From Streptantibioticus silvisoli (GTDB taxonomy: Bacteria > Actinomycetota > Actinomycetes > Streptomycetales > Streptomycetaceae): 64,000 nt of DNA. The notes below the pieces were generated by a model. The model was not told the origin of the DNA. It did not search any database and saw only the letters and a program-made list of their open reading frames with translations. The translations under genes were made by a program, and so were the position numbers. The first letter of the stretch is position 1. The number at the start of each line of letters is the position of its first letter. Location of the stretch: assembly GCF_027947535.2 (NCBI RefSeq), contig NZ_JAAGKO020000021.1:62001-126000 (forward strand), read 5' to 3'. This document shows positions 3,142 to 32,798 of this stretch, in pieces.

Positions 3142-3909
3142 TCAGTGCGCGGTGCGGGCGTACCGGGTGAACAGGAAGCCGTCCTCCTCCAGCAGGCCCA
3201 CCGCGGTCATGCGGTCCGGAACGGCCAGCGGCGGGCCGGTCACGATCCGCGGGGCGCCGCCGGCGCAGAGCACCGGCGCGACCGTCAGGCACAGCTCGTC
3301 CAGCTCGCCGGCGGCCGCGAACTGCCCCAGCAGCCGGGGGCCGCCCTCGGCCAGCAACCGGGTCAGACCGCGCGCCGCCAGCTCCCGCACCACCGCGCCG
3401 GGGTCGGCCAGCGCACCGTCGCCCGCCACCACGACCTCCGCACCGGCCGCCCGGGCCGCCCGGACCCGGCCGGGATCGGCGCCGGCCCCGGTGAGCAGCA
3501 GCGTCGGCACCACGGCCGCGGTGAACAGCGGCGCCGAGAAGTCCAGGTCCAGCCCCGAGCTGACCACCGCGATCGCCGCGGCCGGCGCCTGGCCCAGGGC
3601 CGCCCGGCGCCGCTGGAACGCCTCCCGGGCCTTCGCCGGCCGGTACCCCTCGGCCCGGACGGTCTGCGCGCCCACCACGATCGCGTCGGCCAGCGCCCGC
3701 AGCACACCGAAGATCCGCATGTCGGCGGCGCTGGACAGCGGCCCCGAGGCGCCGTCGTGCCAGGCGGCGCCGTCCAGCGAGGCGACCATGTTGGCCCGCA
3801 GTACCGCGCCGCGCCCGGGGCGCGGCAGCGGGTAGGCGTAGGCGTCCGCGAGAGCGTCCAGCGTGTCCAACGTCTCATCGTCCGGCGGGACGGGCAGCAG
3901 GCGGCGCAT
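3142..3909 (-). CDS. RibD C-terminal-domain (pyrimidine reductase-like) protein
   Basis: The 255-aa protein matches the stand-alone RibD-C/dihydrofolate-reductase-like fold. It shows the N-terminal NMVASLDGA motif, AIVVGAQTVRAEGYRP in the NADPH site, and the LLAEGGPRLLGQF motif near residue 190, all typical of pyrimidine reductases of riboflavin synthesis. There is no deaminase half and no other rib gene nearby, so the true substrate is uncertain. The ATG at 3909 is chosen because the sequence before it diverges from the family. It is divergent from zapE with a 37-base gap. A possible promoter GTGACA-N16-GAGACT ends 7 bases before this ATG, so it could be leaderless. Confidence 0.85.
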   Translation of the reverse strand: MRRLLPVPPDDETLDTLDALADAYAYPLPRPGRGAVLRANMVASLDGAAWHDGASGPLSSAADMRIFGVLRALADAIVVGAQTVRAEGYRPAKAREAFQRRRAALGQAPAAAIAVVSSGLDLDFSAPLFTAAVVPTLLLTGAGADPGRVRAARAAGAEVVVAGDGALADPGAVVRELAARGLTRLLAEGGPRLLGQFAAAGELDELCLTVAPVLCAGGAPRIVTGPPLAVPDRMTAVGLLEEDGFLFTRYARTAH

Positions 3910-30005: not shown

Positions 30006-31643
30006 TCAGTCCAGCGCCGGCCGCGCCCGGTCCACCACCGCGGCCAGGTCCAAGGTGTGCGGCAGGGTGCCGAAGGCGCTGCCCCAGTCGCCGCCCAGCC
30101 GGGAGGCGCAGAAGGCGTCGGCCACCGCCGACGGCGCGTACCGCACCAGCAGCGAGCCCTGAAGGACCAGGGCCATCCGCTCCACCAGCCGCCGGGCCCG
30201 CCCCTCGACGCCCTCCAGGTCGGCCAGCTCGTGCAGCAGGTCCTTGACGGCGCCGTCCAGCCGGTGGTCGGCGCCGCGCGCCCGGCCGACCTCGGTCAAG
30301 AACGCCTCCAGCGCCCGCGGTTCACGGCCCAGCGCCCGCAGCACGTCCAGCGCCTGGACGTTGCCCGACCCCTCCCAGATGGCGTTGACCGGCGACTCGC
30401 GGAACAGCCGGGGCATGCCCGACTCCTCGACGTAGCCGTTGCCGCCCAGGCACTCCAGCGCCTCGTAGGCCACCGCCGGGCAGCGCTTGGTCACCCAGTA
30501 CTTGGCCACCGGCACCGCGATCCGGCGCAGCGCCCGCTCGTGCTCGTCGTCGAGGTCGCAGGAGGCCGCCAGCCGCAGCGCGGTCGTGGTGGCCGCCTCG
30601 GACTCCAGCGCGAGGTCGGCCAGCACGTTGCGCATCAGCGGCTTGTCGGCGAGCCGGCCGCCGAAGGCCTCGCGGTACGTGGCGTGGTGCACGGCCTGCG
30701 CGACCGCCTGCCGCATGGTGGCCGCCGAGCCGGACACGCAGTCCAGCCGGGTGGCGGCGACCATCTCGATGATGGTGGCCACCCCGCGGCCCTCGTCACC
30801 CACCCGGCGTACCCAGGTGTCGGAGAACTCCACCTCGGAGGAGGCGTTGGAGCGGTTGCCGAGCTTGTCCTTCAGCCGCTGCACGGCGAAGGTGTTGCGG
30901 GTGCCGTCCGGCAGCACCCGGGGCAGCAGGAAGCAGGTCAGGCCGCCGGGGGCCTGGGCCAGCACCAGGAAGCCGTCCGACATCGGGGCCGAGCAGAACC
31001 ACTTGTGGCCGGTCAGCGCGTAGGTGCCGTCCTCCGCCAGTGGCACCGCCCGGGTGGTGTTGGCCCGCACGTCGGAGCCGCCCTGCTTCTCCGTCATGCC
31101 CATGCCGAACAGCGCGCCGGACTTCTCCGCGGCCGGCAGCAGCTCGGGCTGGTAGACCCGGGAGGTCAGCAGCGGCTCCCACAGCTCGGCCAGCGCCGGC
31201 TCGTGGCGCAGCGCCGGCACCGCCGCGTGGGTCATCGACAGCGGGCAGCCGTGGCCGGCCTCCGCCTGGGTCCAGGTGATGAAGCCGGCCGCCCGCCGCA
31301 GGTGCCCGTCCGGCCGCGACCAGGCCCCGGTCAGCCCGGCGGAGACCGCGTGCCCGAGCAGCCGGTGCCAGCTCGGGTGGAAGTCGACCTCGTCGATCCG
31401 GTGGCCGTAGCGGTCGTGACTGCGCAGCACCGGTTCGTTCGCGTTCGCCTCCTCGCCCCAGCGCTGCGCCTGCGCGGAGCCGGCCGACCGGCCCAGCTCG
31501 CTCAGCTCGGTGGTGATCTCGTCGAGGCGTTCCGGCGCGGCGTGCCGCGCGACGCCCTCGGTCAGCACCGGGTCGCCGCCGTATACGTCGTACGCGACCA
31601 GCGTCGGGACCTGGTTGGTCACGGTATGTGTGGGGACTGCCAT
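30006..31643 (-). CDS. aidB: AidB-like acyl-CoA dehydrogenase family protein
   Basis: A 545-aa flavoprotein close to E. coli AidB/ACAD11-type proteins in length and domain order. GMTEKQGGSDVRANTT, the FCSAPMSDGFLVLAQ strand, LKDKLGNRSNASSEVEF and ECLGGNGYVEESGMPRLFRE are AidB-type signatures; AidB takes part in the response to DNA alkylation and binds DNA. Acyl-CoA oxidation activity is uncertain. The ATG lies 7 bases after TACCGT with no Shine-Dalgarno sequence, so the mRNA is probably leaderless. It is divergent from yihY with only 18 bases between the two start codons. Confidence 0.85.
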   Translation of the reverse strand: MAVPTHTVTNQVPTLVAYDVYGGDPVLTEGVARHAAPERLDEITTELSELGRSAGSAQAQRWGEEANANEPVLRSHDRYGHRIDEVDFHPSWHRLLGHAVSAGLTGAWSRPDGHLRRAAGFITWTQAEAGHGCPLSMTHAAVPALRHEPALAELWEPLLTSRVYQPELLPAAEKSGALFGMGMTEKQGGSDVRANTTRAVPLAEDGTYALTGHKWFCSAPMSDGFLVLAQAPGGLTCFLLPRVLPDGTRNTFAVQRLKDKLGNRSNASSEVEFSDTWVRRVGDEGRGVATIIEMVAATRLDCVSGSAATMRQAVAQAVHHATYREAFGGRLADKPLMRNVLADLALESEAATTTALRLAASCDLDDEHERALRRIAVPVAKYWVTKRCPAVAYEALECLGGNGYVEESGMPRLFRESPVNAIWEGSGNVQALDVLRALGREPRALEAFLTEVGRARGADHRLDGAVKDLLHELADLEGVEGRARRLVERMALVLQGSLLVRYAPSAVADAFCASRLGGDWGSAFGTLPHTLDLAAVVDRARPALD

Positions 31644-31649
31644 GACAGC

Positions 31650-31656
31650 TACGGTA
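31650..31656. promoter_or_regulatory. Shared palindromic -10 element for two divergent leaderless genes
   Basis: TACGGTA reads as TACGGT on the forward strand (6 bases before the yihY GTG) and as TACCGT on the reverse strand (7 bases before the aidB ATG). Both are good TANNNT -10 boxes at leaderless spacing. One element can thus load RNA polymerase in both directions. Confidence 0.6.
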
Positions 31657-31661
31657 GGCAG

Positions 31662-32798
31662 GTGCAGGCCGACGATGGAACACCCCCACCGCCTCCGGGT
31701 CGCAGCCGCCACCCCCGCGCCCGCGCGGTCCTGCGCGGTCTGCGGCAGCGCCGGATGCTCCGGCTGCTGGTCAAGGACACCTTCCACACCTGCGTGGAGT
31801 ACCGGGTCACCGGGCTCGCGGCCGAGGCGGCCTTCTTCGTCCTGCTGTCGCTGCCGCCGCTGCTGCTCGGCCTGGTCGGCGCGCTCGGCTACCTCGACGA
31901 GGCGGTCGGCGCCGACACCATCGACCACATCCGCGACAACATCCTGAGCGCGTCGGCCACCGTCCTGTCCGACAACGGCGTGGACCAGCTGGTGCGCCCG
32001 CTGGTCGACACCGCCTTCCGCGGCGGCCGCCCCGACATCATCTCGCTGGGCTTCGTCATCGCCCTGTGGTCCGGCTCCCGCGCGGTCAACGTCTTCGTCG
32101 ACACCATCACCATCATGTACGGCCTGGAGGGCCGCCGCGGCATCGTCCGCACCCGGCTGCTGTCCTTCGGGCTGTACGTCGTCGCGCTGATCGTCGGCGC
32201 CATCGTGCTGCCGCTGGTGGTGGCGGGCCCGGACGCGGTCCGCGACTGGATCCCGCACAGCGCCGGCACGGTCGAGGTCCTGTACTGGCCGGTGGTGCTG
32301 GTGCTGTCGGTGGCCTTCCTGACCACGCTCTACCACGTCTCGGTCCCGGTGCGCTCGCGCTGGCTGGAGGACGTGCCCGGCGCGCTGGTGGCGCTGCTGA
32401 TGTGGGTGCTGGGCAGTTTCCTGCTGCGCATCTACCTCGAGCACGCGGTGGAGGGCCCGACGATCTACGGTTCGCTGGCCGCGCCGGTCGCCGTCCTGCT
32501 GTGGATCGGCGTCTCCGCGTTCGCGGTGCTCATCGGCGCCGCCGTCAACGCCTCCATCGACCGCGTATGGCCCTCGGCCGCCACCGCCACGGCCCGCGCG
32601 GAGCGGGCGGAACGCGGGGCCGCCGACGGGGGCGACGGCGGCGGGGGCGCCGAGACCGGTGCGGCCGGTGCCGGGGATGCGGCGAAGGGGTCGGCGAAGG
32701 GGCCGGCGGAGGACGGGGCGGACGGTCGCCGGGGCGGTCGGGACGGCGGCGAGGGGGCCGGTGGAAAACCGGTGGACGGCCCCGGGGGCGACCGGTAG
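31662..32798 (+). CDS. YihY/BrkB-family inner membrane protein
   Basis: A 378-aa membrane protein with about six membrane segments: the first after FHTCVEYRVTGLAAEAAFFVLLSLPP, then IISLGFVIALWSGSRAVNVFVDTI, LLSFGLYVVALIVGAIVLPLVV and others ending LLWIGVSAFAVLIGAAVNASIDR, all typical of UPF0761/BrkB. The C-terminal 80 residues are Gly/Ala/Asp-rich and probably disordered. Function is unknown; an RNase label sometimes given to this family is unsupported. The GTG at 31662 is at leaderless distance from TACGGT. A methionine further in (start of MLRLLVKD) would lose the proline-rich N-terminus and is an alternative start. Confidence 0.8.
   Translation: MQADDGTPPPPPGRSRHPRARAVLRGLRQRRMLRLLVKDTFHTCVEYRVTGLAAEAAFFVLLSLPPLLLGLVGALGYLDEAVGADTIDHIRDNILSASATVLSDNGVDQLVRPLVDTAFRGGRPDIISLGFVIALWSGSRAVNVFVDTITIMYGLEGRRGIVRTRLLSFGLYVVALIVGAIVLPLVVAGPDAVRDWIPHSAGTVEVLYWPVVLVLSVAFLTTLYHVSVPVRSRWLEDVPGALVALLMWVLGSFLLRIYLEHAVEGPTIYGSLAAPVAVLLWIGVSAFAVLIGAAVNASIDRVWPSAATATARAERAERGAADGGDGGGGAETGAAGAGDAAKGSAKGPAEDGADGRRGGRDGGEGAGGKPVDGPGGDR

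Follow-up and report, generated by a model that had tools for sequence, protein, structure and literature searches.

The window, a stretch of 64,000 nucleotides analysed as a whole, comes from a genome of 8.7 Mb whose closest named relatives are Streptomyces. It carries two divergent genes whose start codons are separated by 18 bases (Table 1). The minus-strand protein contains an AidB N-terminal domain (AidB_N, E=1.3e-52, 178.5 bits) and an acyl-CoA dehydrogenase domain (E=8.8e-31), the domain combination expected of an AidB protein, and the plus-strand protein contains a BrkB/YihY domain (E=1.3e-45). Both reading frames are genuine genes. A preliminary description of the locus had tied it to the response to DNA alkylation, a tie that amounts to a family or homology label. 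The aidB-like protein misses the cut-off of the best-fitting NCBIfam equivalog, PRK11561 (483 bits vs 545), and in the PDB it matches a generic acyl-CoA dehydrogenase best and E. coli AidB (3djl, E=6.7e-124) second best, which leaves a role in alkylation repair unsupported.

Read across 31641-31664, the order is CAT, GACAGC, TACGGTA, GGCAG and GTG, and all seven bases of the heptamer are noncoding. On re-reading the sequence, the positions assigned earlier to the ATG, the GTG and the heptamer proved exact, and so did the spacings of 6 bases to the GTG and 7 to the ATG. Inspection of the intergenic sequences of the window and its relatives also bore out the earlier remark that no fitting Shine-Dalgarno lies between the genes. 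An AAGGAG or AGGAG found in relatives was rejected as a candidate, since it abuts the GTG directly and is thus wrongly spaced.

Table 1. Features of the divergent aidB-yihY locus, in window coordinates
Feature	Position	Strand	Remarks
aidB-like acyl-CoA dehydrogenase gene	30006..31643	-	PF18158, PF00441
aidB start codon ATG	CAT 31641-31643	-	start codon kept in 50/50 close-packed loci
Predicted aidB transcription start	A31643 or C31644	-	from -10 spacing
Putative shared -10 for both directions, symmetric heptamer TACGGTA	31650..31656	.	TANNNTA in 50/50 close-packed loci
Putative yihY promoter -10 hexamer TACGGT	31650..31655	+	6 bases before GTG
Putative aidB promoter -10 hexamer TACCGT	31651..31656 (31656-31651)	-	7 bases before ATG
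Predicted yihY transcription start	G31662	+	
yihY start codon GTG	31662..31664	+	invariant, in frame with BrkB domain in 50/50
yihY/brkB-like membrane protein gene	31662..32798	+	PF03631
Putative aidB promoter -35 region, inside yihY codons 5-7	31674..31682	-	far from TTGACA

This geometry suggests how the two genes may be transcribed. In either orientation, RNA polymerase carrying the principal sigma factor would recognise TACGGTA as a TANNNT -10, and transcription would begin at or within one base of the aidB ATG and at the yihY GTG, presumably giving two leaderless mRNAs. The upstream part of each promoter would then sit within the first codons of the opposite gene, and a polymerase bound in one orientation would exclude the other, allowing a single occupancy at a time. 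In the window the predicted transcription starts lie 19 bp from each other; about half of its relatives have 18 bp instead, and no third distance occurs among the 50 relatives with closely packed genes described below.

Close-packed and separated aidB loci

We gathered aidB loci from genome contigs, together with further members of the family, and counted the 84 in which a -10 could be recognised. In all 84, a TANNNT precedes the aidB ATG by 6 or 7 bases, and the loci fall into two classes. In the close-packed class (50 of the 84, drawn from at least ten of the family's genus codes) the yihY GTG lies 17-18 bases away, the yihY reading frame is open in every case, and the spacing of the yihY -10 to its GTG is always 6 bases. 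S. griseus is one of the species with this close packing. Every one of these loci carries TANNNTA, as TACCGTA in 34, TACGGTA and TACGTTA in 5 each, and TAACGTA and TAAAGTA in 3 each; the centre thus varies (CCG, CGG, CGT, ACG, AAG) and the symmetry is retained. In the separated class (34 of the 84) yihY lies roughly 40 to 260 bases away or is not adjacent at all, and TANNNTA is found in none, the base that follows the aidB TANNNT being C, G or T and never A. A divergent yihY is still present at 25 of these 34 loci, and each of the 25 has a TANNNT of its own before the GTG, at a distance of 6 bases in 24 and of 7 in one.

The preliminary description had proposed that homologous loci should keep the gap and the -10, as these 50 loci do, and loci of other families too. 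It had also named long, variable gaps with no shared -10 as the finding that would speak against its reading, and such loci do exist; they occur in a single large clade of Streptomyces and in a few smaller clades. In these gap-widened clades, however, both genes keep a leaderless-type -10 of their own and the symmetry is gone, which makes them a natural control. By these comparisons, many actinobacteria, Streptomyces among them, retain the putative promoter arrangement, and it is lost exactly upon separation of the genes. Both genes look leaderless in either arrangement, and full symmetry of the aidB -10 appears only where one -10 would serve both. On the tree the classes switched 4-5 times independently, all concordantly; with so few independent switches, a sign test over 4 pairs falls short of significance (p=0.125).

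At two loci (L010 and L011) the aidB copy of the motif lacks the final A (TACGGTT or TACGGTG) and the yihY copy is TACCGTA, about 120 bases apart. Both loci have the appearance of a shared promoter that was recently split or duplicated, with its two readings divided between the copies.

An unlikely alternative to a promoter read both ways is that only one direction, most likely that of aidB, is real at the heptamer, and that the other gene starts inside its neighbour's coding region with a leader. The outer base required by the second direction could in that case persist by common descent, yet an A following the aidB -10 is universal in the close-packed loci and absent from the separated ones. 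Moreover, a separated yihY comes with a TANNNT of its own, placed 6 bases ahead of this same GTG, and is thus of the leaderless type by itself, and neither start is preceded by a usable Shine-Dalgarno, the AGGAG of the relatives being out of place. Taken with the conservation of the site, the contrast between the classes supports the original reading as a symmetric bidirectional promoter for a leaderless pair, and we consider it highly probable that one symmetric -10 within 18 intergenic bases acts as the bidirectional core promoter of two leaderless divergent mRNAs.

Selection on the heptamer and putative upstream signals in the neighbouring codons

For the 50 close-packed loci, base changes were mapped by parsimony onto an aidB protein tree. 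None was required at the heptamer's outer positions (T, A, T, A), compared with 2, 6 and 1 at its three central positions and 3-8 at intergenic bases nearby. Both -10 readings are under selection, given that the outer bases are fixed in these 50 loci and that the second reading is absent from 34/34 separated ones. It might be asked whether the palindrome, a short inverted repeat flanked by divergent genes, is instead the binding site of a regulator. We hold this to be very improbable, as the symmetry is confined to seven bases, of which the central three vary, and the distance to both start codons is fixed at that of a -10.

Relative to the predicted aidB start, yihY codons 6 and 7 have their third bases 35-36 and 38-39 bases upstream. 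At codon 6 the third base is A in 50/50 close-packed and 12/24 separated loci (Fisher p ~1e-7, kinship ignored), and at codon 7 in 45/50 and 8/24, respectively (Fisher p ~1e-6, kinship likewise ignored); as a background, GAA makes up 9.5% of Glu codons and ACA 0.7% of Thr codons in these genes. This shows an additional synonymous constraint on yihY codons 6-7 in the close-packed class, within what would be the aidB -35 region. Third-base A is also frequent at codons 3 and 4 (39 and 38 of 50 close-packed loci, 23 and 21 of 24 separated loci). Because it is common in both classes, this A-rich signal after the GTG is more probably a feature of yihY itself, perhaps serving leaderless translation, than part of the aidB promoter. 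In the window, codons 3-4 (31668-31673) read GCC GAC, without the rare A of most relatives.

No match was returned by a simple sigma-70 scan, and the best matches to TTGACA in the close-packed class, in both directions, mostly agree at 2-3 of 6 positions, no better than at random positions. These poor -35 elements are a further point in favour of a single real direction, and they mean that one direction could be weak. A GTGAC-type -35 is more frequent in front of aidB at separated loci, which agrees with the NTGACC that PMC4895711 gives for S. coelicolor.

Occurrence of the pattern in other families

The bare pattern CAY-N5-TANNNTA-N5-RTG has 0-2 matches in most actinobacterial genomes (about one per genome), a rate similar to that of a reversed control. 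Counts from single genomes were therefore rejected as evidence. One isolated site could be chance, and the evidence has to come from relatives. In the window the pattern occurs once, and in 100 shuffles not at all. We scanned 118 class-level genomes for the pattern and 60 genomes for an AT..AT control, and fetched 60 matches of each. Coding frames flank the site on both sides in 16/60 pattern matches vs 2/60 controls (p=5e-4), a ratio that is soft, given that 3/16 of the two-sided cases duplicate a gene pair already counted and that frames were judged by a simple heuristic based on GC position. That the geometry arose by chance, or that codon constraint alone conserves it, is scarcely credible: the pattern does turn up about once per genome at random, but controls are far rarer between genuine divergent genes, and the seven bases lie outside both coding regions, with four of them unchanged in 50 loci while their neighbours change. 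The conservation of this putative promoter could not be chance.

The scan, blind to gene identity, also recovered an aidB-yihY pair with a symmetric heptamer in another family (f28, locus L186), and direct searches added more in f28 (L262, L265) and in f11 (L252, L254, L258), the yihY frame being open in 3/3 checked f11 loci (the same L252, L254 and L258). The same putative promoter design therefore recurs in at least two other families, f11 and f28.

Comparable sites were seen beside other genes. A second conserved, symmetric leaderless-type pair, CATCCCGC TAGGCTA CCGGCGTG, lies between the genes for a SAM methyltransferase and for a SpoU-type rRNA methylase (L119 at about 3198-3220, L120, L121) and is repeated in several genomes of one genus of another family. 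Further TANNNTA sites between divergent genes (L163/L164, L176, L185, and L137/L139 at about 901-923) involve dapD/dapE-like and crp/nth-like pairs, a 5-FTHF cyclo-ligase with a UTP-glucose uridylyltransferase, and two AI-2E-family transporters. At one locus (L183, about 901-923) a symmetric TACGGTA precedes yihY, with a short open frame on the opposite side and aidB elsewhere in the genome.

Relation to known promoters and significance

Bacterial bidirectional promoters have been described in which a symmetric -10 is shared and the commonest distance between the starts is 18 bp (Warman et al. 2021, as reported in PMC12825309 and PMC10268837). As far as those two reports describe them, the aidB-yihY site resembles these promoters in having one -10 on both strands, predicted starts about 18 bp apart and a reciprocal pairing of -7T and -11A. 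Going by the same reports, it differs in that both directions encode proteins and would, by geometry, give leaderless mRNAs, in that the putative shared -10 and two short spacers fill the entire intergenic region, and in that the upstream promoter parts would sit in the partner's codons. The promoters of Warman et al. 2021 were, according to these reports, mapped experimentally, whereas the aidB-yihY promoter is predicted from sequence. For five bidirectional promoters tested in E. coli, basal transcription is reported to be too low for competition (PMC12825309).

In S. coelicolor, TANNNT is the -10 motif and about 21% of mRNAs are leaderless (PMC4895711), and actinobacterial leaderless genes carry this motif some 12 bases ahead of their start codon (PMC3160421, PMC4895711). 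The two genes studied here are like these in having TANNNT 6-7 bases before ATG or GTG without a Shine-Dalgarno, and unlike them in sharing what appears to be one -10. We found no description, among open-licence papers, of leaderless genes that share a bidirectional promoter. Bidirectional -10 elements and leaderless genes are thus each already known, and their combination is apparently undescribed in that literature.

We favour, with some reservation, the broader view that the site exemplifies a recurrent actinobacterial minimal divergon, in which two leaderless genes are separated by an intergenic region made up wholly of one TANNNTA and two short spacers. If this is true, a promoter, both start codons and the reciprocal upstream promoter parts overlap within well under 100 bases. 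The locus would represent a conserved and naturally controlled bacterial bidirectional promoter with a protein made in both directions, and a promoter signal embedded in the opening codons of an adjacent gene. Groups with fused and split promoters would provide natural pairs for testing what symmetry costs or gains, be it in mutual exclusion, co-expression or noise. The finding further suggests that minimal divergons may be common where leaderless genes abound.
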